This document shows, in pieces, positions 1 to 52,448 of a DNA stretch of 64,000 bases. This DNA is from Bryoerythrophyllum caledonicum. Taxonomy: Eukaryota; Streptophyta; Bryopsida; Pottiales; Pottiaceae. The translations under genes and the position numbers were made by a program. The stretch's first letter is position 1. Each line of letters starts with the position of its first letter. The stretch lies in the NCBI GenBank assembly GCA_963971425.1, contig OZ020525.1:17180187-17244186 (forward strand), in the 5' to 3' direction. The notes below the pieces were generated by a model that did not search any database, was not told where the DNA came from, and was given only the letters and a program-made list of their open reading frames with translations.

Positions 1-3000
1 GTACTTCTCCGGCCGAACATTCCACGGAGGAATGGCCGGATGAGGAACAAAGATCCCTGGAATGGGCAAATTTCTCTGGAATGTTGGCAATTATAAGATC
101 CAATCGAGAGTGCTTGTAAGTTTCACTTGAAACTTGCCGTGATCGATCTGTTCCAACCTGAAAAGCAATTAAAGTAAGAAATTGGAAACAATGTTTTACA
201 TAAATTTCAACAAACAAAAGTGATAAAATCAAATCATACCTTTGATATGAATTCATGAAGACGAGCCCAAGGCTGTGGTGGACCACCGGGCTGAGAAAGA
301 GACTGCATGAGCAAAAATAGAGAGCAATTCAGAATTAAAGACTCTGAAGAGACAATCTGAATTGGTGCAACGGATGACTCTGATTGTTGAAATTGACGTT
401 GTTTGCGTTGGTGAACCTCCATACGTGTAACTTCAATAAGACTGGATCCTGCAGCTTGAGAAGATGCCATGACCAGCGATCAATTCCAAGCAAGTTCATT
501 ATCTCTGGTCACATCTGTTTGGTTTGGTAGCACAGAAACATTAACAGTTGCCCTTGATGCAAGGGCAGTAGCTACAGCCTCCTCAATCTCAGCCTTCTTA
601 GCCGCCTCCGCCTTCTGAGCCACTTCAATCTCCAACTTTGCCTTCTCAGCCTTGGTCAAGCGCTTCTTTTTGTTCGAAGTTTCATCTTGGACAACTACTG
701 GCGGCACAGATGACTCCTCGTGTTCTAAATCCTCGCCCTCAGGATTAGTTGAAACATTGGGGGATGTAGAACCACAAAGACTACTGTAAAGCTCCAACTC
801 CTCGTCTTGAATGAAATTAGAGCTACATTCAAGGTACCATCCACCACCCTTTAGAAGAGGGACAGAGTATTTCTCCTGCTGAATATTTGTGAAAATACAT
901 AGATCCGAAAAAGATTGAATCCATGGAGATAGGAAAGCAGGGCATGAGACAACTCCAAGCGCATTTTTAGGCATCAATTCCCTGATAATGTACCTAAATG
1001 AACACAAAGCAACGTGATAAGAAATGAGTGAATGAATTTGAAATGTTTAAAGAGGCACAAAGTGGAGAAATTAAATGAAAAATACCTGTAGAATAGACGC
1101 TTGATGAGAAGGTCATCTTCCAGTAAACCATTGAAGTTTGATTCCTTCAGAAATGGTGGCTTAATACTTAGATGGACAATATGCATGAATGCCTTCTCCC
1201 ACAAGATCATACGCCATTTCTCAATATAGTCCGACGGACGCATAATCCCCGGAGAGGCGTTCCAGTCCACAGTCAATGCGCCCGACTTACAAAGATTCTC
1301 GAATTCAGAAATGAAGCTATCTTCAAGCTGAATATTGTAAACAAATATTAGGAAACAATAAAAAAAAATATGATAAGAAAATAACAACAAATGAATAATT
1401 GAATCACCTGTGCCCAAAATGATGCACGATTCAGGAATAAGTCAAGTGTGGTGTCTTTGAAACGTGCACTTGGAAATCGATAGGAAGATTGAATAAAAGC
1501 TGGAGAATTCCACTGATGCAACCACCTTGCTTTGAAAAGTGGCCCAACAATAGGGGTTGTAACCTTCTGCAACCTCTCGATAGTCATTTCAGTTGTTTTG
1601 AATTGACTGAAATGATTGTTGATCTACAAGAAGAAAATTCTAATGAATATGATGAAAAATAATCAACAAAAGAATTATCAAATTGTCTAAACAATCATTG
1701 AAAACAAAGTAAGATAATAAGGGAAAAAATACCTCTTCAAAAAATCCTTCGCCGTGCTTTGGATTTGCAACAGAAAGATATTTGTGAAAATCTTTGTTTT
1801 TAATGGATTTCACCATCGATTCTTCAGCAACATTCATAACTCTCCACACACCTTCTGCCGTTCTCTCCTCTGCAGGCGTGGTTCTTTCGTATTCGATGGC
1901 GGCTTCGTCAGCAACTCGAGCGAGGTCTTGCTGCAATAAACAATATTGTTTGAGACATATAAATTTGATATTTTCATAGTGTTATTTATTCTTTAAACAA
2001 AAAATATAAATGCATAAGTGATACAAAAATTCAAAATACATCTTGAGAAAGCACTTACCCGGTATAAGAAGGATATGAATACATCAATAGTCAAAGAATA
2101 CCAAGCTGCACGGGACTGTCTATCTTTCACACAAGACTTGAATTCTCTGGAGGTCAGAAGTTCCTTGAAGTCTTCAAGCTTGAGGGACCCATAATATCGA
2201 ATGCGTTGCAACCTTGCAGGGAGACTGACCTTTACATGGTTATTCTGAGTTGACCTGCATATTTAAAATCAAATATGTCAATCCAAAGTCAGAGATAATA
2301 GAAGATAATTAATAATCAAGTTATCGATGGAAAATCAAATATGGGTGGATGGTAATACCAATTTACATCGTGCATACAATTAAGCAGAACCGAGATCTGC
2401 CCTTTTGGATTGAGCACAACACTGGAAACCGAGTGATGCCAGGATTTGTTATTAGGGTGAACGTCATTAATATAGCGCCACCATGCATTATATCTGTGGT
2501 TTCCATCCCACACAAAAAACATTTTTCCTTTGAAATGTGCATACTCTGGATTCAAACCCAAAAACTCCTCAAATTTCTCATTGGCAGATTGCCAATGAGA
2601 ATTCCAGCTTGCCTTGATCTCAGGAGACACATCACGGGTTAACTCAGCATCGTCAAACAAAGAAATATAAAAAGAACGATCACCGTCAATGTATCTGCCT
2701 TCAAATCGCTTTTGAAGGACGCATACATCGACCTCCTGCACAGGACGAACACGTGGCAATGGAACCATCCTGCAAACAGGTACATAAAAGGGGCCTTTGG
2801 TGACGCGCATATTTTCAAGGACAGTCACAAAATTTGATTTCTGGTGAAGTCGTCGTGCCCTCTCTCCATCTTGAACATTGACCAAACCACTTGGGCATTT
2901 TGGTGAATCATCTTCAAAATCAAATGAAGAAACGTCCTGTATTTTAAATTTACATATTAAAGTATTCAATAATTGATAACACGTGCGACAACATTACTAA

Positions 3001-6000
3001 ATGCAAAGAGTTGCTAATGCCACAATCTTGAAAAATAACTAATGTCTAAAACAAATGATTAACTAACCTGAATTTCTGGGTTGAGAGGGCCTTCCTTGTC
3101 GTCTTGAGTTGTGTTGACCTCTGAAGAAACTTCTGCATTAATCTGAATAACAATGCACATACTTTTGAGAATGATAAGGCATATGATATACATAACCATA
3201 GGTATTTGAACAAGTTACTATAAATTAGTATACAAATTACGTCAAATCTTAAGTCAATAATGAGGTCATTCTTGATTTCATTAAAGCCATTGTTGAATTC
3301 ATTAACTCTATAGCCAACAAAGACTACATTAGATCAGAATAAAAATTTGAACATAGCCTCTTTGAACAAGCCTTTGTCCACAAAGGCTATTCACGTACTT
3401 CTTAATTGTCAGTTTTCAATTAGTTTATTGAATCACAATTGAGCAAAAAGAGTAGCTTCGTCCACGAAGCCTTCTCACAACATTCAAATGTTCAAAAGCA
3501 ACTATAGTTCGACAGCATCACAAGAGGCTTCGTCCACAAAGCCTTATCATAACATTCAAATGTTCAAAATCAACTTTAATTGGACAGCATTACAAAAGGC
3601 TTTGTCCACGAAGCCTTATCACAACATTCAAATGTTCAAATGATCAAAATCAACTTTAGTTTGACAGCATTACAAAAGGCTTTGTCCACGAAGCCTTATC
3701 ACAACATTCAAATGTTCAAATGATCAAAATCAACTTTAGTTTGACAGCCTCACAAGAGACTTCGTCCACGAAGCCTTATCACAACATTCAAATGTTCAAA
3801 TGATCAAAATCAACTTTAGTTTGACAGCCTCACAAGAGACTTCGTCCACGAAGCCTTATCACAACATTCAAATGTTCAAATGATCAAAATCAACTTTAGT
3901 TTGACAACTTCACAAGAGACTTCGTCCACGAAGTCTTCTCACAATATTCAAATGTTCAAAATCAACTTTAGTTTGACATCATCACAAGAGACTTCATCCA
4001 CGAAGCTTTCATTCATAAATTCACACTCCGAACAAGAATTCATATTTGGACTATGAAACCACATTAAATCAAACAAAAATAAGCGTTCCAATTCATCACA
4101 TGTTGAATTAAAGAGTTCAACCATACCATAGGTTGAGATGATCCCTCGATAATGCCAATATCGCCAACATTTGTGGTACTTACTCCTCTTGGTATGCTCT
4201 GCCACATGCACACAACAATTTAGAATCCACGGTCGCAGAAGTTCTCAACTCACAATAGCATAACATCAAAAATTGCCAATATATAAATGAGGCTTCGTCA
4301 ACAAAGTCTCATTGGACATGCATGATAGCTCATGCCCATGTTCCAGCACAAAAACATGCTTCGTTGACAAAGCTTCATGGCTCAAACTCTGGTGGTACTA
4401 GAAGAACATTTTGATGAACTCAAAGAACATGCTTCGTTGACGAAGCATAACAATTTGCCTCAAACATGCTTCGTTGACGAAGTTCCATCGTACTCAAAGT
4501 TGTTGCTGATTCATTCACAAAATTTTCAAACTTGCTGCTGATAAACTTTCTTACTTGCTGCTGTTCATTCATAAAATTCAGAGATCTTCATGTGTCGTAC
4601 GAACATGATTTGTTATGACGTCGTCCACAAAATCTTTTTTTCATTATTTTTTAAAACATGTCATTACTGTGATTTTATGAATGACGTCGCAGAAAAAATG
4701 ATTTATGCCAAACATGTTTTTTTATGACGAGAATGCTGTAGTGATGTGCTACAAATCATTAGATGCCAAACCTGCGTGTTGAGTTCGAACTGAAATTTGG
4801 TCTTCACTTGGCTCAAGTCATCTGAGAATCTAGTAAAAAAAATGCACAGATGCTCACCTTGTCGCCTGAGAAGGAGTCAATGGTTGCCGCTAAAGGAGAT
4901 GAGCACGCCATATCGTCCAATCCAGCAACAATTCCTCCTCTACATATGACCTGCCACACCAACACAACAAATTAGATTCAAAGAAAACAATCAAAAATTT
5001 CCACTCACTAAAAAGGTTTTGTTAGATCACGAAGCCAAAGCCTGACGATCACAAAGCCTAAGGTCCGTGATCCATGAAGTTAAGTCACACGAAGCCAAAG
5101 TTTTGGACCGTTAAGGACGTAAGTTCCTGGAGTTCTCGACGTCCAAAGAAGAGGGTGAGTAACAGGCTTCGTCGACGAAGCCTTAGTTGACAGCTCAAAC
5201 TAGTTGTCACTTCAGAAGATAGTATGTGCTCTCAGGCTAAAAGGAGCTCTGACACCTCATGATGTGCATCCACGTTGAGAATGTGGACCCACTCTTCCTA
5301 AATAGGTGCAAAGTCAGCGCGTAACTTAAGCGCGTATTTTGAGACACTACCAAAACAAGGCATCCTGGAGATGTCTAAATCCTAGCATCCTGGAGATGCT
5401 GCCGAAGATCCTGTAAATGCTGCCGTAATTGGTGGCACGTTCATGAGTTCATGTGGGCATGATCATGTCAATATCCACTCTAACCAGTCTATCCAGTCCT
5501 AACTTCGATAAAGCTTCCGAGTCTATCCAGTCCTAACTTCGACGTCCAGTTCTGCACTTATCCACATGTACGTGGTGGACACTGCTCATAAACCGTGTAT
5601 GGTGACCCATGCTCACGCGCAGCTTCCATCCGCTTCCTTCCCAGCAATTCCTTCTCACCAGTACACTAATCACTGAATATAGTGTAGAGGGATGATCGAT
5701 GTAGATCACCCATACTAATTTCCATCAAAGCATGTGCATGCCAAGTTCTGATTGGGTATTTGTTCTCAAGCAAGTGTGTGTTAGTCAACAAATATAGCAA
5801 TTTCCCTACAAAATTTTCACGAAAATTTACTATATTTAGTAATTTTTTCTCCGCCCCTTCAATCCCCCCGGGCACACGTCGAGACAGATAGGAAAAAACA
5901 TATTTTTTGGTTTGGAATCACAGTCTCCACCGCTTCTGGAGTTGATTGTGCCTCCGCTAGTGATGGGATTGATTCCTCAATATCCTCCGTAATTGCATCG

Positions 6001-6438
6001 GTTCCTCCTCTTTCCTTGTCCTTCCACACACATATTAGTATAAAAAATTAGATGAAAGTATAGGAACAATGAAGATGAAGTTAGCTAGGTCAGCACATCA
6101 TTGTTACATAAACTCTTGCAAAGACATTCAGAAATTGACGTAGACATAACTATATACTACTAACTAAAAAGTCGCACAACTGAATCTCCTTCATTGTCAA
6201 GAACGAGGTGTTGTTCTCCATCTCTATCACGTTGTCTTAGATTATACGACAACACCCTTGCGGTATCAGAAATGTCAATGTCAGAAATATTTGCCTTTCT
6301 CCTTCCCATCCTAGCCCTCTGCAATTGCTTACGACTTGAAAACAAGATGCCTTGCCTCCTACGCTTCTTCTTCCTCTGACTTTCTACAACTAGACAATCT
6401 GTCGTAGTTTCCTCATTCCAACCTAATGACAATTCCAT
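1..6438 (-). CDS. ParB-like / DNA methyltransferase-like protein, multi-exon, 3' end outside window
   Basis: I infer about twelve exons from GT-AG borders with matching phases: 6181-6438 (ATG at 6438), 5922-6020, 4858-4950, 4127-4198, 3068-3142, 2359-2936, 2059-2254, 1733-1930, 1408-1623, 1086-1327, 240-993 and 1-157. The reading frame holds across every junction; the donors at 6181 and 5922 are weak. The product exceeds 970 residues. It starts with a basic, NLS-like stretch (RKKKRRRQ), then acidic linkers. Exon 2359-2936 has VWDGNHRYNAW, the DGxHR motif of ParB/sulfiredoxin folds. The last visible exon has LDLIIANIPE, which resembles motif IV (DPPY) of amino-methyltransferases, though the PP is replaced. 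One in-frame TGA (480-482) breaks the frame between residues N and S and could be a mutated CGA. The gene is divergent from the MULE transposase at 7113, and a related 3' half lies at 20599-21965. DNA N6-adenine methylation is my inference. Confidence 0.72.
480..482 (-). other. In-frame TGA stop in the methyltransferase-like gene
   Basis: The exon 240-993 is open except for this TGA; the frame continues for 80 more codons to a good donor (AAG|GTATG) at 239/240 and then in phase into exon 1-157. A CGA to TGA change would explain it. It could instead mark the true end of a shorter product, but the downstream methylase-like motif argues against that. Confidence 0.7.
2359..2936 (-). other. Exon encoding the ParB/sulfiredoxin-like DGNHR domain
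   Basis: This is the longest early exon of the gene above: 578 nt, entering in phase 0 and leaving with two bases that the next exon (2059-2254) completes. Downstream of a conserved-looking strand (VCVLQKRFEGRYIDGDRS) it carries MFFVWDGNHRYNAWW. In ParB-type nucleases and sulfiredoxins the DGxHR motif forms the nucleotide-binding pocket. The assignment rests on the motif and its spacing only; no helix-turn-helix is apparent. Confidence 0.6.
3455..4010. repeat. Eight-copy 72/80-bp tandem repeat with CTTCGTCCACGAAG palindrome
   Basis: Units begin at about 3457, 3529, 3601, 3681, 3761, 3841, 3921 and 3993. The spacing is 72 or 80 bp, the longer form having an extra ATGATCAA. Each unit contains an interrupted palindrome (GGCTTCGTCCACGAAGCC or a variant) and a CATTCAAATG core. 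The array sits inside the intron between exons 4127-4198 and 3068-3142 of the methyltransferase-like gene. Confidence 0.93.
4285..4490. repeat. Dispersed GCTTCGTTGACGAAGC hairpin motifs
   Basis: Four more copies of the palindrome (near 4291, 4355, 4430 and 4465), now with TTGAC at the centre, are spread through the next intron of the same gene. They are spaced less regularly than the tandem array. Confidence 0.8.
5164..5183. repeat. Perfect 20-bp palindrome AGGCTTCGTCGACGAAGCCT
   Basis: This is the fully symmetric version of the motif repeated at 3.4-4.5 kb. It lies in the intron between exons 5922-6020 and 4858-4950 of the methyltransferase-like gene. Confidence 0.9.
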
Positions 6439-7112
6439 AAACCCAGGCGTACAAATGAATTTGAAAACCTCTCTTTTAAGGTTGTCAAAACATCTTTGAA
6501 AGAGGCTTCTTAATTGAATTTAGAAGTTTCCAACTCATTGTTGCTATATTAATTTGCATACAACTTGGCAGAAATATGATAGCTTCTTCTCTGTCAGCCG
6601 CCGCTATTCACTTCAATAATTGTTCACACTTTATTTATAGCTTACATATTTATGAGTTGTTTGTCACTAATTGTTATTTTGGGTTCATTGCCGTCATTCT
6701 AATGCCTGATAATAACTAGTCACTTTAATTCATGAACATGATGGGTTGTCAACCTTTCAATCTTATTCCAATCATATAGCGCAGTCAGAGTGCAATTATA
6801 CACCGTGAATTGTGCCTTCGTCTATTCTTTAAAAGTTTCTCTAATTGCATCTATCCGCCGTCATTCACTATCAAGAATAGGACTTGCAAAAATATCGAAT
6901 ATCAACATTTACTTTTTCATTTACGGCTATTCTGTTAAAGAGATTTTATTCCTGGATTACTCCCAAAATTTACTTCTAGTAAATTGTTTACATTCGTCCA
7001 TGTTAGAAGTTTTTGTTTGTGCAAGTACTTAATCTTCTGTGCCTCTGCTAAACTCCCTCTTTTGTATCGATTTCATTATGTCTTTGTGAGGTTGCAATTT
7101 ACTTAGACTACA
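6439..7112. promoter_or_regulatory. Divergent intergenic region between methyltransferase-like gene and MULE transposase
   Basis: The 674-bp AT-rich gap separates two start codons that point away from each other, so any promoters for both genes should lie here. I see no unambiguous TATA box or known operator. The role is inferred from position only. Confidence 0.45.
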
Positions 7113-10100
7113 ATGGCCTTCATTTGTGCTGATTTGCATTCTGTGCCAGTTACATTTCCGTTGGGTGAAGATGGTCATGCCATGGTCACTTCCACAACTC
7201 TAGGTCTGAGGTTTCAATTTCGTGAAGAGTCTGTCTTTGTGGAAGAAGAGGTTTTTGACATTACAACGGGACAAGTCTCGCATGCTATTGGTCAGTTGTC
7301 AAGTACGAACGATGTGGAGACATTCTGGTTACTTAAACCCGGAAAGTATCGGGCATACGGAGTCTCTGAGTCAGTTTCAGCAGCTTCCACTAAACTCCTT
7401 ACTCCTCGGGAGTCTTCCACTATTAGCATTAAGACCCCAATGCTTTCCAAAGTCAAAGTAGAGCGAGGTCTTCAGACCATCTATGAGCTTAGTGATGACT
7501 CGGACAGTGAAGACGTCTAGGGTTCACTGTTAGAACCAAAGTGCAGAGAGCAGAGGGCGCTATCTCCGCAAACTATACGCCAAAAGTCAACTCATCCTAT
7601 CAGTCCGTCACGCTCCAGCGAGCCGTCAAAAACTCGACCAAGTTACTCAATCAGCGTAGTTCAGTCCTTAATGAAACTTAGTGCACGTAAGAGGTAAAAA
7701 AAAACGTCTTGTCCCGAATAGATTTCAATGCGATTAAACTAGAGCAGGTAGAATTTCTTCCGCCTCAATACAATGGAGACATTGTTTTTGAATTTCCTCC
7801 GTTGGGAATCCATGGCCAGCAAACTGTAGCCAAGAAGCTTCGTGGCATGGACAAACGTTATGATGGCCATGCTTGGTCTCGCACCATCACGTCTAATATT
7901 CAAAACGAATTGAAACTTACATTCCGTACCTCTTCCTGTCTTGGCCACCTCCGTTGTGACAATGTCGACTGTGAGTATCTATCTCGAGACCATAGAACCG
8001 CCGATGTGAATGAGACTGAGTGGGATGGAATATCTGTCAAAGTGTTTGAAGTTGGATCCAGTCCTCCTACCGGTTCTACACTAGTTTGCAAAACATGTAA
8101 TGTCCCACCTACATGTATTGCAGTTTGCCCTGCGAAGATATACTATGTGTTTGGAACACCACACATGACGAGAGCATGTGTGCATTTAGGATCTCACGAC
8201 CATCCTGTCAAGACTGGTGATTACCGTGACTTCATTGAGCAGACAGAGAGCTTGATTGGTGAACAGGTGGCACAGACTCCATCAGCAACTCGTTCTGCCA
8301 TTGTGCTTGAAACAGCGAAGGAAGTACTTGGCCCACTCCTTTTGGCTAGAGAAGGTGAGGAACGGAAGACCTTGGAGCTCTCGGAGTTGTTGCCACTCTT
8401 TGATCGGTGCAAGCATCTAACCTCTCCCAATCTTTGTAATTCTGTCTCTACTTTTAGGCATCTACGACGGTATGGAATCATGGACAGCATTACCAAGCTT
8501 CGGGGCTCGAGCACCTGGAATTTTGTTCAGGAGAATATGTTTCCGGGACAAAGATCAGACATGGACAAGGTCTTCGTCTTCAAGATGTTCGAGGTCGGGC
8601 CTGGCAGCGGAGTTGACTTGGTGAAGCGAATGCAGTCTGGGGGTAACCTTGAGAACGCCTGGATAATATTTGACCATGTCAAACGTGTCAGATCCTGGAC
8701 TACCATGGCTTGCCACGTGTACGACTCCACTTATTGTCGGGTCATGACAATCGCAGTATGTGACATGCAATCGGAGGACGTTGCAGCCCAATCAGTAGTA
8801 TGGAAGAATCTGAATGCTGTCATGGCGCGCCACGGTGTGCATCAAGTCAATTTCAAGGGATTCATGGCCGACAGCGCCCAGGCTAATTGGAACGCTGTTC
8901 ACATCATCTACGGAAGTGGAGTCGCGAGTGAGAAAATGGTGGATAGAGAAAGGACTTGCCTTTTCCATTGGACACAGCCTCTGGAAAAACACACCAAGGC
9001 TGACATTCGCCAGGACCTCCAAGCTCAACACCGGGAACTCTGCCAGCAATACAAGAATGCGAAGTCCATAACAGAGGCCGATACTAAGTATCTTGCAATT
9101 CGAGCATGGTGGATGTCATCCAGTGCTGCATCTGAACAAGGCCTTCCTCGACTTGAGCTTTGGCTCGCCTTCTGGCACTTTCGTTACCGGCAGTGGGGTG
9201 GCTTCATGCAGCTAGTAATTCCTCTATCTTCCTCTACCTTTTTTTCATAATCTACTTCGCCTCTAAACATTACATAAGTACTTTGATAAGGCTAAATTGA
9301 CACCATATTACAATTGCAGGATCTCTCTCAAGACGAACCTGCAAAAATGCCATCTTGTAATCTTGCAGAATCGATCCATAACAAGTGGAAACAGCAATCC
9401 GGCGATCGAGGGAGCGACCTGTACGTGGCGACCGTGGACGACTTTGTTCGCGGCTTCATGCAGTGCTTAGCATACTACCAATTCCTCAAAGGAGAGCGCC
9501 CTGGTACTGGTCCGTCAAAGGAAGAACTCAAGCTCAGAAGTGCTCAGAGGTTATCGGCTCGAACTCGAAACTCGAAACCACTCCACGAAGCGTTCTTGAA
9601 GATGCCTGGCGCCGACGTGTTGTGCACCAGAACTCCTCACCTTGAAAGGGAAGAGGTATTTATTTCTCTTAAACGAAAGCCGGATACCGCTTTTGGTTCT
9701 GAATATGAGTCTCACAGGCCTGACAAGATTAGCATGTCAAGACCGCGCGTCCAAACCAGATCAACACGCAATGACAACAATCACAACCTTCCACCAACTG
9801 ATTCTCCTACACCTTCTGATCAGGAGGAGCCAAGCCTTGAAACACACCGACCTATTCATCAAATCGATTGCCACCACCTCACTGCTGTGGAGGAGACTGC
9901 ATGCGACCCTTCCGAATGGCACATCGCACGCCTTGCGAAGACATCCGCCAAAGCGTGCTTTGCTCAACAAGCCTTCACCAAGAAGAAGTGCGTCGCACGG
10001 ATTGTGCAAGACGGGAAGAGCACTGTTGCTCGAACCTACACTGGCATGATGGACAACTACAAGAAGAACAAGAAGGAGTCTATGCAATTCTTCTTCTGCA

Positions 10101-10684
10101 ATGACGACATTGAAAGATGCGTGAAGGGCACTCGTCGAAAGTGGGTGATGTCAAGACCTGAGGTTCCAGAGGTTTGGCCGGTTAAGTTGGGGACTAACTT
10201 ATCTTGCAAAGAGATCCTCTCCTTGGAGAATGGAGGCTTCAGACTACCGCAGCGGAAGGAGATGTTGCCAGCAAGGCTCTTTCAGGACCAACCATTATTT
10301 ATGGACTTATCAACTTACACGACTCCAGCATATCCAGACGAATTTCCCACCCGCAGATCAGGGAAGAATATTCAGCGCAACAAGAAGGCACCGTCCACCA
10401 AGCATGCCAACAATTGTGCATCGGCCCTATCATTGAAAGGAATTGTGCGCAAGTTATGCATGCTTCCCGCCCCTGCCCTTGGATGCATTGTCTCATTGGA
10501 TTCGGGCACACCTCCAAAGGTCCAGCAGTATTATTTGACAATTTCGCAGCCTCGGGGTAGCCAGTGCGTAAAATGTAGAAACCACGTGAGAACAAAACTA
10601 GGGTGCTCTTTATTTATAAGAGGTAAACTTTATATATTTTTTTTAACTACTATAGCTATGGTGTATTGTAGGGTATCCAAGTAG
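7113..10684 (+). pseudogene. Mutator-like (MULE) transposase, copy 1, decayed
   Basis: The protein falls in parts: 7113-7517 (N-terminal domain), 7709-9214, intron 9215-9319, then 9320-10684. After an acidic linker comes a Cys/His-rich region (CDNVDCEYL, CKTCNVPPTC, CVHLGSHDHP) like a GCM/FLYWCH DNA-binding finger. The catalytic region follows, with HVYDSTYC, FMADSAQANWN, a C-x2-H (CLFH) and SCNLAESIHNKW, recalling the Asp residues, Cys/His pair and NxAES block of MULE transposases. Defects are a TAG at 7518-7520 (copy 2 reads on here) and a frameshift near the A-run at 7697-7705. The C-terminal SWIM finger has also lost its Cys-x-His pair, although an unrecognised intron from the GTAAAC at 10623 could explain that. 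It cannot be active unless repaired. It is about 45-60% identical to copy 2 by eye. Confidence 0.82.
9215..9319 (+). other. Intron in MULE transposase copy 1
   Basis: The intron is 105 bp, GTAATT to TTGCAG, phase 0. It is supported by an intron of 103 bp at the same protein position in copy 2 (26715-26817), and flanking protein (GGFM before, ExAxMPSCNLAE after) aligns when both are removed. Confidence 0.88.
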
Positions 10685-11200
10685 AAACAATGAAGGGGAG
10701 GATATAATATCAGTATTTATGTTTCAAGTAAATATATTTTATCATGGAGAAAATGGGGTAAAGGAGGATTTGGATGATAACTGAGATGAAAACCTGTTCT
10801 ATTTTCATTCACTGTGATGAAGTAGGAAGAGGCCGGAGCCGAGAGGGTATCCCATGTCATTTTAGGGTTTTGGGTGGCCTTGACGAGGGAACTCCGCCGA
10901 TGTCGTCTTTGCCTTCCAAATGTGAGGGTTTGGTTATGTCCGTTGAATTGTTTGCTTCATTGGCATTGTGGTGCATGGGGTTAGGGTTTCATGATTTTCA
11001 ACGTCTGTATTTTCTATTGGTATCTGTTTGCTACTGGATTGAAGCGCTGCGAGTTGCTGCTTGCACACGAGTTCTCGGTCAGGTGAGGCGACATTGTGGT
11101 GCACTTCAGTTTTCAGATTCATAGAAATAGAAATCGTTGTAGGGTGCATACTATTAGGGTTTAACGATATTATGTGTGGGTTCTTTTTGTATTGGATAGT
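10685..11200. other. No gene recognised between MULE copy 1 and the next transposase gene
   Basis: The stretch is AT-rich then mixed sequence. A 116-codon frame (10774-11124) lacks recognisable motifs and a relative in copy 2. The right border of the copy-1 element and the left border of the next element must lie here or nearby, but I found no convincing terminal repeats. Confidence 0.5.
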
Positions 11201-14574: not shown

Positions 14575-14799
14575 TGTCGTAGTACGTGTTGGCAACTATT
14601 CACATCTTAACACAAAGATATCCTTAAGGTAATCGTTCCCACAGAGAATCACCGAGAACTACAACGACTAACAACTCATCTATATGTACACCAGGTTATC
14701 TATATCACAATAATTACATCAAAAGAAGGAAAAGGGTTAGATTACAACGCCGGAGCGTTTATCTACAGCCACCATCCCGCTCTCCGTACGAGTACTTCC

Positions 14800-17336: not shown

Positions 17337-17795
17337 ATGGCGGACAGTCCTGACCCTTGGGATCTACTGGGATGTAGAAGAACACGGTGTTTGACTCCTC
17401 CACCGATAATCACGTTTCAAGATGTTGAGAATGCTCGTGCTGTGTCCAAGCTTTGGAAACGTGAGATTGACGACAGTCTTGAATATGCTTGCCTTCGGCT
17501 AGCAAAATGGGATTACATTTCATATAGAGGAGGGCACTGGACTCCGAAGGACGAGTATGAAGCATACTGCTTCAACGTGAGCTGGAACATCTTTAAGAAT
17601 TATTGGTCACTAGCAGATCCAATTAATAATGAGAGGTTAGAGACAGCGTCACTTGGCGAACTTAGTTGCTGTGAAGTAGATCAGTTGAGGTCATTGCTAA
17701 GTGACAATAGGAACCACTCTCTCTGGCTGCAGCCGGGAGAGAAGATTGCACCACGACGTGGTATCTGGGTCTCCTCTAAGAATAGGTTAGATTGA
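17337..17795 (+). CDS. Small hypothetical protein, possibly F-box derived
   Basis: This 152-codon frame is uninterrupted from ATG to TGA. It reads MADSPDPWDLL, then DVENARAVSKLWKREIDDS, then several Trp-rich segments (FNVSWNIFKNYWSL). The V-x-K-x-W block followed by a Leu-rich helix resembles the second half of an F-box, but the match is weak. It sits 750 bp inside the left MULE terminus on the same strand as the transposase. It may be a captured host fragment or an accessory gene of the element. No intron or signal peptide is visible. Confidence 0.4.
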   Translation: MADSPDPWDLLGCRRTRCLTPPPIITFQDVENARAVSKLWKREIDDSLEYACLRLAKWDYISYRGGHWTPKDEYEAYCFNVSWNIFKNYWSLADPINNERLETASLGELSCCEVDQLRSLLSDNRNHSLWLQPGEKIAPRRGIWVSSKNRLD

Positions 17796-18605
17796 TTTTA
17801 CTATGAGAGTGGCTTAAGTCCTTTCCTAATATTTTATTTATGTTTTACACTTTTATATTTTTTTGATTTTTTTGATTTTTTTTTTTTGGTTTTGATTTTT
17901 TGTCTATATTTTAATTTCATTATACTAATCATTTAATACAATTTCTTTGTTTTGCGATTTTAAATTATTAAATTCCAGTTGTATGACGATTTCTTAAATT
18001 CATCTTCACCATGGCATTTTTCCAATCTTAATTAGCAGATAATGATTTAATTCTTCATCCATTGTATCATTTTTTTCTAATTTTTTTATTTTATTTTTCC
18101 TTTTTTCTTATGTCATGTTTTATGTGTTGTTTAATGTTTTAATGTTTCATGTTTTGGTTTAGGGTCTTTATATGGACTGTTTTGAACATTTTAAACAGCC
18201 GTCTTCTCCTTTATCTTTATGATTCTGTGTACGAGTAACCTCGTTGAATGTAATAATTTCCAACGATAATGTCTACCTTAACTTGTGAGTATCCAAGCCT
18301 GGCCAGTCCATTTCTAATGAAGGCGCCTCCTCGTTGTACAAATGATAAATAATTTCAGACATGTCTAATGAATATAATAAATACAGTCATGTGTTTTGCG
18401 GCTGGGATCATCAGTGGTTATCATTTTGCGCCTGGGTTCTACTTGTTGTTCACTCTCCTACAATGTCAACATGGTGATCCATCTGCAGCATTTTCTTTCA
18501 GCACTGTATCGTTGTTCAGTGGTAGTGGAAAGTGAGAAAGTTTACTGCGAAGTATTAGTTACTAAGTGTTCAAAGGTGAAGGGGGACTTCTGAGGGGGTG
18601 GCTCT
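17796..18605. other. AT-rich intergenic stretch inside the MULE
   Basis: Long T-runs (17850-17900, 18068-18120) and low GC. I see no gene, and a 65-codon frame at 18396 has no recognisable content. Confidence 0.6.
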
Positions 18606-20114
18606 GTGATAGATAAGAAGATGACGTTGAAGAGGAAGAAGGCGAGCAAGCAGCACAGAACTAGACACCGAAGTTCTGTGCAGGGTGCTTCTGATGTCCA
18701 AGAAGTTAGTGACGATAACACTGGAATTCAAAGTGATGGAGAGGGCGGAAGTGATCGAGTATTCAACACAGAGGTGTTTGGCGACCCATTTGAACTCGGT
18801 GACATCGAAGAGGGGGTGCGTCAGCGGATGCTTGTTGCAGCGCCAATGCTCATGGGGCGAGATGCAGAGTATGGTAGCAAGTTCTTTACTGATGTTGTTG
18901 GGCTTTGTGATCAAGGGCCGCTTTTAAGAGATGTTTCCAAGTGCTACAGTTTCATCACAAATGAAGAAGTAACTGCTGTGTGGAAGGAGGGAGTCTCAAA
19001 GGGGCGTTACGAGTTTTCAAGGTGCGAAGATGAGGAGCAACTGAAGATGTTTGGTCAGCAGTACTTCAAGGTGTACGGTAACAGGCCCCATAACAACTAC
19101 TTCTGTCTTCGTTTTCTAAAGGCTTGCTTTGCAACTTTTATTTATGGGAAGCCAGTGAATTGGTGTGCTGAGGCATTGGACCGACACGAAGCTCGCCTAA
19201 AGAACGCATGGCGCAATCCAACAAAACTAGGCCTAGTTGCAACTAGATGCCAAGTAGAGGGCCTGTGCACGATAATCAAGGAATTATGTGGTATAGGTAG
19301 AGGTGAAGCGAGACCTGATCCTCTAGTTCATGAGCTCCAAGCAGCACTAGAATTGGAGCGCCAAAGGGCTGACGTAGTGAAGGCTGTGGAGGAGCGCCTT
19401 CACGAGATACGGCAGAGGTACAACGCTAGTCTTTAAAGGATGCGGGTTGAATCCTCTGAAATTGCAGAAGAAGATTTAAATGAGAAAATGGTTTCAAAAC
19501 TTAAGGAGGCCCGGCAGGTTCTACGTAGAGAGGGTCCCACAGTACAATACAAGGCAACTGTTGCAGAGTCTGAGGCATTGTACAAGGAACTGGCTAACAT
19601 GCGGGTGGTTGATGCTCAAATCTGAGAGAATGTTGTTCAGTTGGAATTTGAGTTGGGTAATGAAGCTAAAGTAATGGAGGATGCCAATGCAGAGTTACTA
19701 ACCTCTAAGGCAGCAGTCTCGACTGCAAGGGGATAGATGCTTACTCTAAAAACACCAAGAGTGTTTGAATATCCCAAGGTCCAATCTGTTCCACCTTTGG
19801 GTTACCCACGTAAAGATGCTTGTGCTTACTGTGGCTTGGGATTCGTTTGGAAAGCAGCTGTACTCTCCTCCTGTGGTTGTTTTTTGCACCCTCCTTGTGT
19901 TGCAGAAATGATTTCATGCCAGAGTTATCGATGCAAGATTTGCAAGGATGTCCTCCTAGCCTTGTCTCCAATCCACCTTGCAGAACCATGGGTTGCCCAG
20001 TTTGGTGGCGAGTTAAACCCCCAACAAGAAATTGAGTGTACAAGCTTCTCGGTAGTTTTGAAGGCAGCTAGTGATAGTATCAACGCACCCAAAATTACTG
20101 GAAGCAAGAGTTGA
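18606..20114 (+). pseudogene. Coiled-coil protein with C-terminal RING-like zinc finger, decayed
   Basis: A single frame of about 500 codons is cut by TAA 19434-19436, TGA 19623-19625 and TAG 19734-19736, each explainable by C to T in CAA, CGA and CAG. The N-terminus is basic (LKRKKASKQHRTRHR) then acidic. The middle has a globular region (NRPHNNYFCLRFLKACFATF, NWCAEALDRHEARLKNAWRN). A charged helical region (LEQ-rich, about residues 240-375) predicts coiled coil. The end has CAYC, SSCGCFLHPPC and CKIC, which resemble C3HC4 RING spacing, but one ligand of the middle pair is not in place. It could be a captured ubiquitin-ligase-like gene or part of the element. I do not recognise the family. 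Confidence 0.6.
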
Positions 20115-20598
20115 CATGACCACCACAGATTACTATATAGCACTAAGGAGGCCAAGTGCTAACGGCACTTGTAACAGCAGACATATTTTATTTTTTCCTT
20201 ATATCTCAGCTTTATTCTTGAAGAAATGTCATGGGCGTACTTCAGACATAATTTGTTGATTCACTGACTAGGGTCTCGTTAGGAATTGGAGGGAACGAAG
20301 AAAATCAAGTTAAGTGAGTTGCAAGGTTTTGAGAAGGTCCAGAGGTCAGAAAACACTTCAAAGACAATGGATTAGGTGTTGAGGCTGATAAATTGAAATT
20401 TGAGATATACTTTATGTTTGTCTTAGCCTTGTCGTTGGTAAATTCAACAACAACATTCAAACTTCTGTGAAGAGAGTAATGCACCATATGATATATTAGG
20501 AAGACATGATCCATAGAAGAACAATGGCCCAAGCATTCAACCAAATTATATAGTAGAGGACTGTACAAAGAAGTCCAAATCCATATAACTGTAAAGTC
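20115..20598. other. Convergent intergenic gap in the MULE
   Basis: The gap lies between the stop of the RING-like frame and the stop of the minus-strand methyltransferase-like gene. It should hold both 3' ends. Nothing else is recognisable. Confidence 0.5.
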
Positions 20599-21965
20599 TC
20601 ATGGTACAAACTCGTCTTCACTCTCTGAGGCACTCACATCTAAGAAAACTCGGGCCCTAGGATCGAATCTCTCACGGGGAGAAGAGGACGCGCTGGAGCT
20701 TTGGGAAGATTCTTCAGCCATTCGGGTTGCCAAACTTTCTGCATAACATGGAAGCAGTAGGTCTGAGGTAGTGGGTGACCTGTATCCTCCCCAAGAGCTC
20801 ATCGGACTCAGACTGCAAAAGAAGGTAATGATTAGTTCTAAATCGGATTATGGAATGACAGATAGGAACCATGAGACTTTGACAAAAAAGGACTTACTTA
20901 CAGAGGTCAATTCGATCCACGTCGGGCAAGGGTTCTTCATCGTCCAGCATGACAACATCAGAAGCAGTCGGGGCCGGGGCGATCTGGAGAGGCTTGAGTT
21001 CCTCCTCGTAGATTTATGTGTCAGCCTCGAGGGCAAGAATCTGCCTGCCAGTATTCATGGCCGCTCAAATAGAAGCTCCTAAAAACAACAAACCAATGAT
21101 GAAATCACATGAGAACCATATGAAAGAGCGGTATCGGATCATGGAATAAAGTATATGCAATACCTGTTCTAGCATTGAGGTCGATGACTATGCCCTCGTT
21201 GGGGCAAAGGCCAGTAATTAGCAATTGGAGGAAAGCCACTGCTTTCTCCTTCGGACCCCTCCATAGCGTCCCATCCTTCTTCACCTTGAGAGCTGAATCC
21301 TCGGTGACAACATTCTGATGCAATCATCTTTTACAAGATTTACTTTTCCAAAACGTGGATCGTGTCTAATGACCAAATCCTTCGGCTGCCTCAGTGATAG
21401 ATCTAAGGATCGAACCAACAGTATTGCTTTGAACATTAGAGTCTGATATGCAAGGAAAACAAATGATAAGTTAATATTGGCTTTGCAATAAAAGTAGAGG
21501 TGAAGGGACAAATGGAAAGATTTGGTTGGCTTACGAATTTGGAGTGCGTGGTGGGATGAGTTAAATGCATGGAATTCACGATTGTCCAGTCATCCTTGAC
21601 CTTCAGACTGTTGTTGTTAAGGTAACTCTAGATCTCCCTCTTGACCTGCGGGTTGACTGGATGAAACAAAAGGAGTGCCCCGTCGTCATGCAAGTACCCC
21701 CCGCAAAAGCCAATAACAGTTTTCAAGAAATATAGAGATTCTCCTTGAGCATCTCTGGAGCTTCAAATTTTTCGTAGTGGACTTTGATCTCCTCAAGGAA
21801 AGCCGGCATGAGATCTGGATCTGCGATTGGAAGCAACTTCTTTAGCTCCGACTGCTGACTGTCCTCCACCCTTTTCACCGCCGTAGAGACCCAGTCATCA
21901 ACCGATTTTCTGGTCCATTGTCGCTCCTCAGGATATTTATCGTAAAATTTTTGCGAGACTATGGG
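20599..21965 (-). pseudogene. C-terminal half of a methyltransferase-like gene (copy in MULE)
   Basis: Exons read from splice borders: 21535 to about 21965, 21344-21442, 21164-21314, 20902-21078 and 20599-20812. Exon 1 contains FYDKYPEERQWTRKSVDDWV and, after a frameshift, GFCGGYLHDDGALLLFHP, a typical methylase strand. Exon 3 has DGTLWRGPKEKAVAFLQLL then GIVIDLNARTG; exon 4 continues ASI-x-AAMNTGRQILALEAD. This matches motifs X/I of beta-class amino-methyltransferases, where the SAM-binding motif I lies C-terminal to motif IV. The tail is acidic (SASESEDEFVP). Stops at 21628-21630, 21065-21067 and 21014-21016 plus the frameshift make it a pseudogene. The 5' half is absent, replaced by palindromic repeats. 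It complements the N-terminal half at 1-6438. Confidence 0.7.
21315..21343 (-). other. 29-bp GT-AG segment (possible micro-intron or insertion)
   Basis: GTAAATC to CATCAG on the minus strand separates two exons that join in phase (GGA AAA | AAT GTT). Keeping the 29 nt would shift the frame and lose the motif I region. Either a very short intron or a small duplication is possible. Confidence 0.5.
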
Positions 21966-23760
21966 GGTGACACTATGCCATAGTGACACTATTTGCGCGA
22001 CACTATCGGGGTGTGCCGCCAGCGGCATACCTCCCATCACTCAAACCTTGGTTCCTAAAAGGTGCCAAGGTATGAACGATGGGAGGTGTGCCGTTGGCGG
22101 CACACCCCCGCAGCGTCGTGCTTATGAGTGATTGCGCGACGCTATGGCGGTGTGCCGCCAGCGGCACACCTCCCATCGCTCAAACCTTGGTTCCAAAAAA
22201 GTGCCAAGGTATGAGCGATGAGAGGTGTGCCGCTGGCGGCACACCCCCACAGCGTCGTGCTTATGAGTGATTGCGCGACGCTGCGGGGGTGTGCCGCCAG
22301 CGGCACACCTCCCATCGCTCAAAGCTTGGTTCCAAAAAAGTGCCAAGGTATGAGCGATGAGAGGTGTGCCGCTGGCGGCACACCCCCGCAGCGTCGTGCT
22401 TATGAATGATTGCGCGACGCTATAAGGGTGTGCCGCTAGCGGCATAGCTCCCATCGCTCACACCTTAGTTCTTAAAATGGCCATATCTCACTCAGAAATA
22501 GTCCAAATTAAGCGTGCGGTATGTTTTTTGGCATCTAGAGAAAATTCTGATGTCAAAACACACCTCAAACGCTTAATTTGGGCTATTTTTGAGAGAGTTA
22601 TGACCATTCAAAGGTGCCAAAGTGTGACCGATGGGATGTATGCCGCTGGCGGCACATCCCCACAAAGTAGTGCAATCACTCATTAGATTGACTCTGTGGG
22701 GGTGTGCCGCCAGCGGCATACCTCCCATCCCTCGCACCTTGACACCTTTTATGGTCATAACTCACTCAAAAATAGCCCAAATTAAGCGTTTGAGGTGTGT
22801 ATTGACATCAGAATTTTCTCTTGATGCCAAAAAACATATCGCACGCTTAATTTGGACTATTTTTGAGTGAGATATGGCCATTTTAAGATCTAAGGTGTGA
22901 GCGATGGGAGCTATGCCGCTGGCGGCACACCCTCATAGCGTCGCGCAATCATTCATAAGCACGACGCTCCGGGGGTGTGCCGCCAGCGGCACAACTTCCA
23001 CCGCTCATACCTTGGCACCTTTTAGGAACCAAGGTGTGAGTGATGGAAGGTGTGCCGCTGGCGGCACACCCCCATAGTGTCGTGCAATCATTCATAAGCA
23101 CGACGTTGCGGAGGTGTGCTGCCAGCGGCACAACTTCCATCGCTCATACCTTGGCACCTTTTAGGAACCAAGGTTTGAGTGATGGGAGGTGTGCCACTAG
23201 CGGCACACCCCCATAGTGTCGCGCAATCATTCATAAGCACGACGTTGCGGGGGTGTGCCGCTGGCGGCACACCTCCATAGTGTCGTGCAATCATTCATAA
23301 GCACGACGTTGCGGGGGTGTGCCGCCAGCGGCACAACTTCCATCGCTCATACCTTGGCACCTTTTAGAAACCAAGGTTTGAGTGATGGGAGGTGTGCCGC
23401 TAGCGGCACACCCCCATAGTGTCGCGCAATCATTCATAAGCACGACGTTGCGGGGGTGTGCCGCTCGCGGCACACCCCCATAGTGTGGTGCAATCATTCA
23501 TAAGCACGACGTTGCGGGGGTGTGCCGCCAGCGGCACAACTTCCATCGCTCATACCTTGGCACCTTTTAGAAACCAAGGTTTGAGTGATGGGAGGTGTGC
23601 CGCTAGCGCCACACCCCCATAGTGTCGCGCAATCATTCATAAGCACGACGTTGCGGGGGTGTGCCGCTGGCGCCACATCCCCATAGTGTCGCGCAATCAT
23701 TCATAAGCACGACGTTATGGGGGTGTGCCGCTAGCGGCACACCCGCATAGTGTCGGGCAA
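21966..23760. repeat. Palindrome-rich block (GTGTGCCGCTGGCGGCACAC), 203-bp higher-order repeat
   Basis: About seventeen copies of GGTGTGCCGCYRGCGGCACACC-like hairpins are joined by three linkers: CATCGCTCATACCTTGGCACC, CCCATAGTGTCGCGCAATCA and TTCATAAGCACGACGTTGCG. From 23088 to 23700 the pattern is a 203-bp direct repeat (units at 23088, 23291, 23494), each unit containing inverted halves. It occupies the position where the 5' part of the methyltransferase-like gene would be expected from copy 1. Frames of 60-110 codons inside it (MPLAAHP, ASGTPPI) are repeat artefacts. Confidence 0.92.
22474..22888. repeat. Fold-back element with about 138-bp inverted arms
   Basis: 22474-22611 and 22751-22888 are near-perfect reverse complements (GGCCATATCTCACTCARAAA, CCAAATTAAGCGT, GAAAATTCTGATGTCAA). 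The 139-bp loop carries two copies of the GCCGCTGGCGGC palindrome. It interrupts the surrounding repeat array. Confidence 0.9.
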
Positions 23761-24691
23761 TCACTCATACTTTTTCAATTTTCACTTTTTTGTAATTTTT
23801 TTTCACTTTGTTTTTATCTTTTTTGTCACTTTTTTCTCTCTTTTATTTTCTCATTTTTTTTACTTACGTTTTTTTTCCTCTTTTTTGTTTGTTTTTCACA
23901 GTTTCTGTCCGCGGTCATGTACGTGAAATTGTCTTGCTCCTTTCCCGGTCATAAGGCCGTCTTGGAATCCTTATTTTAGATTATTTTTGGTAACATAAGT
24001 TTCAGTTCCTGTAGTCTGATTACTATCGTCTAGTTAAAAAATTACTTTTGTATAGTAAAAAAGTAACTTTGATATAGTGAAAAAGTAACTTTCATATAGT
24101 AAAAAGTGATAATTTTCAAAAACTTTTTACCAACTTTTTCTGACCGCTCACCGTTCACCGCTCATGCCTCACCGCTCACCGCTCATGCCTCACCGCTCAC
24201 CGCTCACACCTCACCGCACCCAAGATAGCTTCGTCCGGTATGCAATATCAAAGTAGTTGCTGTCACCCTAATGTAGCTTCTAGCTCTACACCCTATATTT
24301 TATAGGATGGACACTTGCCAGGATGTCTTGTCATAAATAATAATGATTTACTTCCATTTCAAAACAATCACCTATTTCTAACTAGCAAAGACGGCTGATA
24401 CTAATCTCAGAGAATTTTATGGACAAGTAGAATTTGCAGCATGATTTAGTAATGAGAAATGGCGGCTACCTGATAAAATTAAACTACGTGCCAGGTAGCC
24501 AACAGGATTACGTTCGTTCATTGAAGTATCGTCGAGAATGCATTCAGAACTGCCTGATCTATTGGATTGCATAAATTGATGATCGTCGATGCAACATTCC
24601 TCTCATTCTAGGTTATCAAATTCCTTACGTAATTTCCATTCGCGCCCCACTATCAGTGATGGTGCAGCTCCTTGCAGAGAGAGTGTTAGGT
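23761..24691. other. T-rich region and short repeats upstream of MULE transposase copy 2
   Basis: 23775-23890 is a T-rich tract. 24040-24110 holds three copies of a TATAGTRAAAAAGTAACTTT-like unit. 24145-24215 holds about four units of CTCACCGCTCACCGCTCATG. The last 400 bp should contain the transposase promoter; I identify no specific element. Confidence 0.6.
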
Positions 24692-27600
24692 ATGGCCGTA
24701 CTCCGAGCTCAAGGCGTTGGCATCCCACTTACAGTACGTGTAGATGATGATGGGTTGGCAACAGTTACGGCGCTTCGCCTCAGCCTTAGATTCCACTTCA
24801 GAGAGGATACTATTAGTATTGAGGAGGAGATATACGACGATGAGACCTCAGAGGTTATGCATACAGATGATCAGGTTTCAGAGAGAGACGATGACAATAC
24901 TGTGTTTTGGAATCTCTATCCCGGTAGGTATAGAGTATACGGTCTCACAGATTCTCAGATGCAGGCATCCACGGTGATTCTAACTCCCCGTCGTTCCTCT
25001 ACATGTACTGTTCAGACTTCACTTCCTCGTGACGTGAAGGTTAAAGTAGAGCCTGGTTTAGAAACTCCTGTTGCAACGCCAGTCATCTCTCTCTCCTCAG
25101 ACGAGGAAACTAATCCTATGAAATCAACCCCTCATGTTCCAAAACAAACTATAGATTCCAGGCCGCCGGTTGCGCTTCCAGTTAAATGTCCCAATCCCTC
25201 TCAATCTTCAAAGGTGGAGACTGTTAGTCTAGTCCCATTGCTTCGCAAACTTGCCGAGAGACCAGGAAAGAAAAACATTCTGAAAAAAATAGACTACTCA
25301 TTCATTAGACACGAGAGAGTTGAGTACTTGCCTGCAGTGTTCGATGGTGCAGTTATTTTTGAGTTGCCCCCAGCTGGTGAAGGAGCCTCAAGGTCGCAAG
25401 CGAAGTCTATGCAAGGAATGGACAAGCGATACGACGGCCACGTGTGGACCAAGACCATCACCACCAACATCACAAACAACTTTGGCCTCTCTTTTCGCTA
25501 TTCCAGCTGCGTTGGATGGCTGCGTTGCAACAACAAGGAGTGCCCATTTCTGGAACGCCGACCTCGCATTTATCAAGTTAACGAGACTGAGTTTGAAGGT
25601 TGTACCCTCCAAGCTTTTACAGTGGACCAGCCACCCCCATCCAAATCTACACTTGTATGCAAGGTATGCAAAGAACCCCCAGCATGCATCGCTACATGTG
25701 GAGCTAAAATTTATTATGTGGCTGGCAAAGTCAAAGGCCGAGATCAGTAGCTGGATAGAAGAACAGGTTGAGAAGACTCCCCAAGCAACGAAGAGTTCAG
25801 TGGTGTTGGAGGCGAGCAAGGTTCTAATCGGCAACTACATACTACAGCCTGAGGACTTACCTCCAAAGAAGCTGAGCATGGAGGAGCTTGTTCCTGTACT
25901 TGATCGTTGCAAGGACATGGCATCCCCAAACATCCGCAACAAGGTAATGACTTTCCGGCGGTTGAGAATGTACCGTGTCATGGATGCTATCACTAAGCTA
26001 CGTGGAATCAGTTTATGGGCCTTCGTCCAGGAGAACAAATTTCCAGGTCAAGGGGCTGATCGCGACAAGGTATTTGTATTCAAAATGTCAGAAGTCGGGC
26101 CAGGTAGTGGGGTCGACTTGGTGAGAAGAATGCAGCCCGGCGGAGATCTCGAGAATGCCTGGCTGATGTTCGACCATGTCAAACGGGTAAGACAATGGAC
26201 CACGATGGCATGCCATGTGTACGACTCAACCTACTGCCGTGTCATGACCATTGCTAGCTGTGATATGCAATCTGAGGACTGTGAGGCCCAAATCGTTTTC
26301 TGGAAAAACCTTAATCTTGTCATGGAGAATAATGGCGTTGTAGCGCCAAACTTCAAGGGATTCATGGCCGACAGCGCTCAGGCCAACTGGAATGCAGTTC
26401 GGATCATCTACGGCAATGGGAAGAAGGAAGACCGTATGGAGGACCGGGAGAGGACCTGCCAGTTTCACTGGACGCAATCGATGGTCAAGTATACGGAGAA
26501 GTACATCCCGGAAGAGCTTTGGGAACAACACAAAAAAATGTGCCACCAATATAGGACAGCGAAGACTATGGACGAAGCGGATAGTCTGTACCACGGGTTG
26601 CAAGCCTGGTGGGTTTCCGCTGGAGCTGTCACTGAGAAAGCCCTAAGCAAATTGGAGCTCTGGCTTGCATTCTGGCACTTCCGCTATCGCCAATGGGGAG
26701 GATTCATGACTGGGGTATGATATTTTCTAACTCATTTAACTTTTCTTTTTTTCCTAGCAAATCCGACCCTAAATAAAGTTGTAACAGATCTAACCGGTTC
26801 ACCTTGGTACTTTGCAGAAATTTACTGATGAAGAACTTGCAGAAATGCCTTCATGTAACCTTGCGGAAACGATTCACAATAAGTAGCTTCAAGCTTCTGG
26901 AAACAAGGGCGGCGACCTCTACGTGGCTACAGTGGACGACTTTGTTCGGGGATTTCTACAAGTTGTCAATTTCTACCAGTTTCTGAAAGGTGACGTAGGA
27001 GGAACGGGTCCATCAAAGAAGGAACTAAAACTAAGGATGGCAGAACGAAGGGCAAAGCTCACAGGGAATCCTATAGAGCTTGAAGACCCCATGTTAGAAA
27101 TGCCTGGAGCATAAGAGTTCTGCACGCGTCAGCCTCGCATGGCTGGAGAAGAAGTTTTTGGGTCCATCGAGCGGAAGGCCGACCTACCCCTTGGAGCTGA
27201 GGAAGAGTCACATCGTCCGGATAAGGTAAACTTCTCTTATCCAAGAGGTACAGGACGTGCTGTGAGGGCTCGCACTGTGCAGATGCCCATCATTTTGGAA
27301 GATGATACCGAAGATGATACTGAGGTACAAGAAGATCATCCTGCAGCATCGGAGGCTGTGACTACCCCGGTGTCCCCAACAAAGGAGATGGGAATTCGCC
27401 ATGTGAATGCAGTTGAAGAGACCAAGGTAAACGTCAAGGAGTGGCACATTTCAAGACTTCCCAAGACTTCTGCGAAGTGTTGTTGGGCCCAGAGAGTTGT
27501 CACCAAGAAGAAGTGTACTGAGAGAATTGTTAGGGGCGCTAATTCTACTGCAGCACCTACCTACACTGGAGTTTGGACTAACATACGCAGGAACATATCA

Positions 27601-28307
27601 GAGAGGACGGAATTCTTCTTCTGCTCCGATGACATTGAGAGGTGCGTGAAGGGCTTCAGACGCAAGTGGATTGCTCGGTACTCAAAGGACCAGGAGATGC
27701 CTCCGATTCCAGACGTTTGGCCAGTGAAGCTAGGAACAAACCTGAAGCTCACAGAAATCCTTGCACTTGAAGCGGCTGGATTCCAACTCCCACAGAAGAA
27801 GCCGGTCTCCCCAAGACGCCTCTTTTCCTCGGCCCCGCCACCCTGGTAAGTTCGTTGCCAGTCCCTGCACAGGCTGACCGCTACCCTGGTAAGAGAGACG
27901 GCAAGATGGTCAAACGCACTGCAACTCGCCCTAATCCGGCTCATCGACTCTCCATGGGCTCCTCTGACTCCCTCAAAGCTTGCCTCCGTTCTGTCACCAT
28001 GATCCCTCATCCAGGCCATGGTTGTATCATCGGGCTAGATTCAGGCGTTGCTCCTACCATCACACAGTACCAGATCACCATCAGCTCTTACCCTGGTTGC
28101 ACTTGCCCTGCATTTAGGAAGACTATGACTAAGTTCCGAGGGAGGACTCAATTCTCCTACTGCAAGCATGTGTACTTCATCCTCTTGAAGGTCTGCAACC
28201 GTGATCCCGACGCCGACCTTTTCATCCACGCGCCTACCTTTAGCTTCAACAAGGTCAAGCTAGTCCTAGAAAGCGGAATCTTGACTCACCCTTTGGCGAA
28301 AAAGTAG
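24692..28307 (+). pseudogene. Mutator-like (MULE) transposase with SWIM finger, copy 2
   Basis: I choose ATG 24692 (MAVLRAQ) because it aligns with copy 1 (MAFICAD). Order: N-terminal beta-like domain (LRFHFREDTISIEEEIYD, YPGRYRVYG) of unknown type; acidic linker; Cys-rich finger (CVGWLRCNNKECPFL, CKVCKEPPACIATC); catalytic core (HVYDSTYCRV, CDMQSEDC, FMADSAQANWNAV, CQFHW); intron 26715-26817; SCNLAETIHNK; then a C-terminal SWIM finger CTCPAF..YCKHVYF (C-x-C-x(n)-C-x-H) at about 28100-28177. A deletion of about 70 nt near 25728, relative to copy 1, removes the CVHLGSHDHP ligands and shifts the frame. Stops are TAG 26884-26886 (Trp in copy 1) and TAA 27112-27114, and the frame changes again near 27849 before the SWIM part. 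SWIM fingers are usual in MULE transposases. Confidence 0.85.
26715..26817 (+). other. Intron in MULE transposase copy 2
   Basis: The 103-bp GTATGA to TTGCAG intron is in phase 0 at the same codon position as the copy-1 intron. Confidence 0.88.
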
Positions 28308-52418: not shown

Positions 52419-52448
52419 AACCTGCACATCCTCTGGTATGTGCCAAGC

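Follow-up and report, generated by a model that had tools for sequence, protein, structure and literature searches.

Transposons that encode a protein with ParB-like and DNA-methylase domains have been described from algae. In the available text of PMC12477816, the 21.5-kb Ectocarpus element Sola1-1_Ec32 carries, on the strand opposite to the transposase, a gene whose 1104-residue product has a ParB-like and an N4/N6-methylase domain, and similar proteins are cited there from transposons of green and red algae; this kind of accessory gene is therefore already known. ParB–methylase fusions are frequent in phages, according to the portion of PMC12704722 available to us. VANDAL/Hiun elements are Mutator-like transposons with an anti-silencing protein, VANC, that acts through short motifs in non-coding parts of the element (excerpts of PMC13317346 and PMC6446971), and the accessible passages of PMC5890265 describe retrotransposons with DNMT or Dam-like enzymes. 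Here we analyse a 64-kb stretch (the window) of contig OZ020525.1 of Bryoerythrophyllum caledonicum, which holds two damaged copies of a Mutator-like transposon family. On balance, we favour the view that these transposons carry two divergent genes between inverted termini of about 50 bp, and that the second protein, combining a ParB-like and a methylase-like domain, is a helper acting on the DNA of its own element. The sequence-only reading of the window had proposed a Mutator-like family with its own gene for a ParB-like and permuted amino-methylase protein; further copies with termini and 9-bp duplications, together with profile and tblastn matches, support that proposal.

The ParB–methylase gene is part of the element. 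Seven matches to the copy 1 transposase were fetched with their surroundings from three identity groups, all picked for a transposase exon free of stops and one with its right flank left out, and DNA alignment of the copies gave sharp borders for S1a (4538–19484), S1b (5143–19551), S1c (4557–19574) and S3g (5187–19558; joined coordinates). Transposase and ParB–methylase gene both lie inside the termini of all four. At the borders of S1a, S1c and S3g, inverted termini span 48–63 alignment columns and are 71–85% identical between ends; the printed ends of S1b are alike by eye, and blastn gave another stretch. Such terminal inverted repeats are a hallmark of Mutator-like elements, which are defined by a target site duplication of 8–11 bp (PMC6446971, in the part accessible to us). 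All four elements are flanked by 9-bp duplications, GTTTAAGGC, AAGTTTCGC, TACACCGGC and AGCCGTCAC (ten shared bases, one ambiguous at the border), and copy 2 of the window shares ten bases on its two sides, inside a repeat. The hexamer GTGAGC occurs three to four times within 200 bp of each element end and one to three times in the interiors. In the remaining three of the seven loci, a complete pair of ends was not found. The expectation that both genes would recur between matching inverted termini elsewhere in the genome was thus borne out by four elements with 9-bp duplications.

The pairing of the two genes extends across the 437-Mb genome (894 contigs), which we searched for further copies; the match lists hold the best-scored matches only, and every count from them is a lower bound. 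We scored the best 83 of 3027 first-look candidates for the copy 1 transposase exon, which fall into groups of about 95, 81 and 66% identity, and the best 123 of 2595 for the copy 2 transposase. Since 38 of the latter lie at places found in the copy 1 search, the other 85 and the 83 make 168 distinct transposase places. Two ParB exon searches gave the best 150 of 1737 and the best 150 of 1772 candidates, with no overlap between the sets. A listed ParB exon lies within 10 kb of 65 of the 83 copy 1-type transposases, divergently in every case, and of 84 of the 168 transposase places (83 divergent), whereas chance would yield about 2.3 such pairings among the 300 ParB and 168 transposase places taken together. 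The sequence-only reading had judged the same neighbour unlikely to occur twice by chance, and had named transposase copies lacking the gene as an observation that would speak against it; the counts agree with the first and run counter to the second. Six of the seven fetched loci have the ParB–methylase gene about 6 kb upstream of the transposase on the opposite strand. The seventh, S2e, has only a ParB piece, downstream, in the 26 kb fetched, and a divergent ParB exon about 22 kb upstream that may belong to S2e or to a neighbour. In ten copies with equal-scoring ParB exons, the gap between ParB exon and transposase is 5,856–5,860 bp.

In the window, transposases had been placed at 7113–10684 and 24692–28307, and both are present with nearly the same limits (Table 1). 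Their two main exon pairs are 64% and 53% identical. Termini were not recognisable from the window alone; the genome copies revealed the ends of copy 2, which are of the same kind as those of the four delimited elements. Because copy 2 sits in a minisatellite, its ten-base duplication is weak by itself. Repetitive DNA on both flanks (15989–16582 and 29514–30190) is probably the insertion target, and a repeat-unit array at 22040–24237, ending in terminus-like sequence on the minus strand, is apparently nested in copy 2. The terminus-like stretch at 24237 was considered as an end of copy 2; no partner was found, and we read it as part of the nested insertion. The ends of copy 1, including the right one, were not found, and its match to S1a is confined to 6192–10550.

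Table 1. Features of the two element copies in the window (negative positions lie left of the window)
Feature	Position	Strand	Remarks
Copy 1 transposase, S1 subfamily	7107-10684	+	Frame disturbed in places; 96.5% DNA identity to element S1a over window 6192-10550
Copy 1 ParB/sulfiredoxin-fold exon (predicted) with DGNHR	2359-2948	-	
Copy 1 linker exon	2059-2254	-	
Copy 1 linker exon	1733-1930	-	
Copy 1 linker exon	1408-1623	-	
Copy 1 linker exon	1086-1327	-	
Copy 1 long linker exon	240-993	-	One in-frame stop near 480
Copy 1 methylase-domain start, altered motif IV LIIANIPE (in LDLIIANIPE)	1-157	-	Exon runs left of window to -190
Copy 1 C-terminal exons	-303 to -540, -637 to -836	-	Left of window
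Copy 2 whole element between inverted termini	16583-29513	.	
Copy 2 left target duplication, GGTTCGCATC	16573-16582	.	Target itself a repeat; weak evidence alone
Copy 2 left terminal inverted repeat	16583-16634	+	
Third gene of copy 2 subfamily	18594-20114	+	Two frames; RING-like Cys/His-rich stretch in second, by eye
Copy 2 methylase gene remnant (linker exon, then GALLLFHP, motif I and ALEAD exons)	20900-21983	-	In-frame stops
Copy 2 transposase	24575-28307	+	Frame disturbed
Copy 2 right terminal inverted repeat	29460-29513	-	
Copy 2 right target duplication, same ten bases as left (GGTTCGCATC)	29514-29523	.	

The minus-strand methylase-like pieces reported beside both transposases are found where they had been placed and point away from the transposases. 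Both copies are damaged, as had been said: the copy 1 gene has one in-frame stop and two frameshifts, and copy 2 retains only part of the gene, with stops (GALLLFHP near 21690; GIVIDLNARTG..ALEAD at about 21200–21020). One supposed weak point, that the two halves of the gene lie in different copies, falls away. The halves are apparently split because the window edge cuts the copy 1 gene; beyond the left edge, copy 1 holds the same C-terminal exons as copy 2. The pieces in copy 1 and copy 2 are one gene type. Pfam searches of the raw open frames gave no methylase and no ParB, the spliced N-terminal half had only two protein matches and the ParB exon only seven, and a scan of viral contigs with one early match protein found none.

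The N-terminal domain is predicted to take the ParB fold. Structure prediction of the ParB exon from 41 sequences gave a ParB-CTPase/sulfiredoxin fold; from 8 sequences, the prediction reached a predicted local distance difference test score (pLDDT) of 39.1 and no usable fold. In the DGNHR motif, which we take to be the GxxR box of the nucleotide pocket, N and H are invariant in 41 sequences, and D, G and R are kept at 90% or more. Pfam DUF1015 was weakly matched by 11 of the 41 members of the ParB exon set (best 0.024). A sequence search of the PDB with the ParB profile found no relative, with two unrelated matches at E values of 0.16 and 0.88.

The second domain, about 230 residues long once spliced, is, to judge from profiles and alignments, homologous to circularly permuted N6/N4 amino-methyltransferases. 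The PF01555 (N6_N4_Mtase) profile matched one copy at an E value of 8.8e-6 (26.3 bits), PHROG profiles matched two copies at 1.2e-7 and 1e-7 (phrog_498), and a third copy matched a phage methylase by tblastn at 3e-6 over nearly the whole domain. The assignment to N6/N4 methylases, open to such profile searches, was thereby upheld, and alignments bear out the claimed permuted order, with motif IV before motif I. Both motifs are altered. Motif IV departs from (D/N/S)-x-P-(Y/F/W), with glutamate in 15 and lysine in 1 of 16 copies at the position of the aromatic residue. The GxG of motif I is absent, its first glycine being lost in 10 of 10 aligned copies (LDWNASTG, LDWKASTG, LDCSTATG and similar).

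Transposase and ParB–methylase helper appear, from their unequal similarities, to have been exchanged as modules. S1a and S3g share 96.5% identity over 5.2 kb that include the methylase gene and only 66–67% in the transposase. Copy 1 shows the reverse: a 4.4-kb stretch with its transposase matches S1a at 96.5% identity, and the methylase protein of copy 1 is only 46% identical. The combination of transposase and methylase type seen in copy 1 recurs at other loci.

We propose that these elements pair a transposase with a SWIM-like end with a gene for a putative ParB-fold and permuted N6/N4-methylase-like protein, related to phage methylases, that would act as a helper on the element's own DNA. 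The ParB domain and the methylase-derived domain would most likely bind the element, for example at the GTGAGC arrays at its ends, and the bound helper might guard or mark the element against silencing by the host, or help it to transpose. All copies read have another residue in place of the base-stacking one of motif IV, and for this reason DNA binding or sensing of S-adenosylmethionine, without ordinary methylation, seems likelier than classical N6-methyladenine or N4-methylcytosine formation, and the role may be comparable to that of VANC in Arabidopsis. A more specific version, possible but rather doubtful, is that a phage-derived ParB–methylase became, within a Mutator-like lineage of a plant, a conserved DNA clamp with an altered catalytic site that sits on the element's terminal arrays and shields it from silencing; the module would pass from one transposase to another, and a single type of helper would serve several families.

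Several observations weigh against the helper reading. Of the four delimited elements, only S3g has an open second gene, that of S1a, S1b and S1c being damaged, and in the window the methylase gene of copy 2 is broken and its subfamily carries another accessory gene; the methylase gene may therefore not be needed by every lineage. The lists give no ParB exon within 10 kb for 18 of the 83 transposases; the gene does lie near at least four of these: C2:37452746 and C7:3524620 carry it in their fetched surroundings, and C10:9325734 and C7:1187709 have a divergent motif IV exon 8.5 and 9.1 kb upstream. The PF01555 scores of 26.3 and 23.8 lie below the curated Pfam cut-off of 26.7, the first gene type matched phage DNA by tblastn only at E values of 0.1 or worse, and Foldseek found no match for the ParB model in the PDB at an E value of 0.001 or better. 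In one of two elements scanned, the transposase matched Pfam Transposase_mut (0.21) and SWIM (1.3) weakly, below the cut-off in each case. By eye, it shows a SWIM-like CxC..CxH and conserved D, D, C..H and E residues, and its putative Mutator membership is based on target duplications, termini and SWIM-like spacing.

The main competing reading, which we consider unlikely, is a working methylase for N6-adenine or N4-cytosine: it would mark element DNA against silencing or label its termini, DIPE/DLPE being a tolerated variant of motif IV. Some phage relatives of the copy that matches over nearly the whole domain are annotated as adenine methylases; the motif IV aspartate is present in most copies, and the second glycine of motif I and the acid of AFEED are kept; phage relatives use DLPY, and the first proline of motif IV is therefore not required. 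Epigenetic modification of the element has been proposed for the similar algal protein (PMC12477816, in its available text). Against an active enzyme stand the missing aromatic residue in 16 of 16 copies and the lost first glycine in 10 of 10.

Functionless cargo, captured once and carried along, is a more improbable account. Many copies are broken, among them the two of the window and those in S1a, S1b and S1c, and additional reading frames, often derived from the host, are known from Mutator elements (PMC6446971, as excerpted). However, the second gene is open over about 980–1000 codons in five copies of several lineages, the distant ones 31–58% identical, and 119 of the 150 listed motif IV exons have no stop (hand count). 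S3g and S1b differ in the methylase gene by 31 synonymous and 27 nonsynonymous changes, a ratio of nonsynonymous to synonymous rates (dN/dS) of 0.25 that rests on this one pair, S1b having one stop, which tempers the case for selection; only this pair counts because the distant lineages are saturated. The gene's place beside 65 of the 83 listed copy 1-type transposases also speaks against mere cargo. An accidental neighbourhood in a transposon-rich genome, or a host gene family, we hold to be very improbable. This account draws on the ParB exons, only 85 of the 300 listed (83 divergent) having a listed transposase within 10 kb. The other 215, in lists of best-scored matches only, leave some room for a mainly host locus; of these, all four loci fetched have a transposase in the 10 kb next to them, which in one is a fragment and in another lies on the same strand. 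The near-constant gaps in ten like copies point the same way, and for the delimited elements the accidental or host-family account is refuted by the presence of both genes inside termini with target duplications.

The favoured helper reading places these elements beside, and apart from, the systems described. As characterised in the sources available to us, Sola1-1_Ec32 shares, by its description, a protein of about 1,000 residues with both domains on the strand opposite the transposase, but has a Sola1 transposase in a brown alga instead of a Mutator-like one in a land plant; the altered catalytic motifs and apparent module exchange are reported for the elements here. ParB–N6_N4 methylase fusions of phages and prophages (phrog_498; the Mycobacterium phage Vincenzo DNA methylase) share the domain pair, the permuted motif order and the predicted fold of the ParB part. 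In contrast, the gene here has eight or more introns, encodes domains set several hundred residues apart, is degenerate in motifs IV and I, and lies in a eukaryotic transposon. VANDAL/Hiun would be similar in role, as Mutator-like elements with an extra gene acting on their own kind of DNA by way of short non-coding motifs. The retrotransposons share a transposon-encoded DNA methyltransferase, but carry cytosine DNMTs or Dam-like enzymes, and ParB was outside the search terms of that paper. In the open-access literature, we found no Mutator-like carrier in a land plant, module exchange or altered active site for such a gene.

The subfamily of copy 2 carries an accessory gene of its own, and may have dispensed with the methylase. 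A genome search with the first frame of this third gene (18597–19436) gave 142 matches, the first 50 of which were taken; 22 of these are 88–100% identical, with a listed transposase on the same strand within 20 kb in 19 and within 10 kb in 14, and mostly next to transposases of the copy 2 type. More distant relatives with long open frames occur elsewhere, and beyond the first 50 the matches are mostly additional fragments or remote relatives. Elsewhere in the window, two stretches about 20 kb apart (41787–43877 and 61909–64000) have open frames that are 100% identical, as would be expected of the long terminal repeats of a young retrotransposon. A second pair of stretches with identical open frames (50517–52490 and 58528–60453) lies between these two, together with large minus-strand frames (44543–50572 and 52452–56084) of 26% identity. 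A 696-residue open frame at 12492–14582 on the plus strand has no Pfam match. The genome also holds a LEAFY gene whose DNA-binding part, KMRDYVHCYALHCLD, we take to be of the moss type; the LEAFY SAM domain has seven matches (L037 and six other places), above the expectation for one gene.

Transposon helpers with ParB and methylase domains of prokaryotic type are a thinly described class, to which the present findings contribute carriers from a Mutator-like family and from a land plant. The gene belongs to the element, is under selection in the one pair tested, occurs in many copies and, as it appears, is exchanged between transposases. That no copy read keeps the catalytic aromatic residue sharpens the question of whether such proteins methylate DNA or act by binding it. 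If the host is a transformable moss, the effect of the helper on silencing would be directly measurable.
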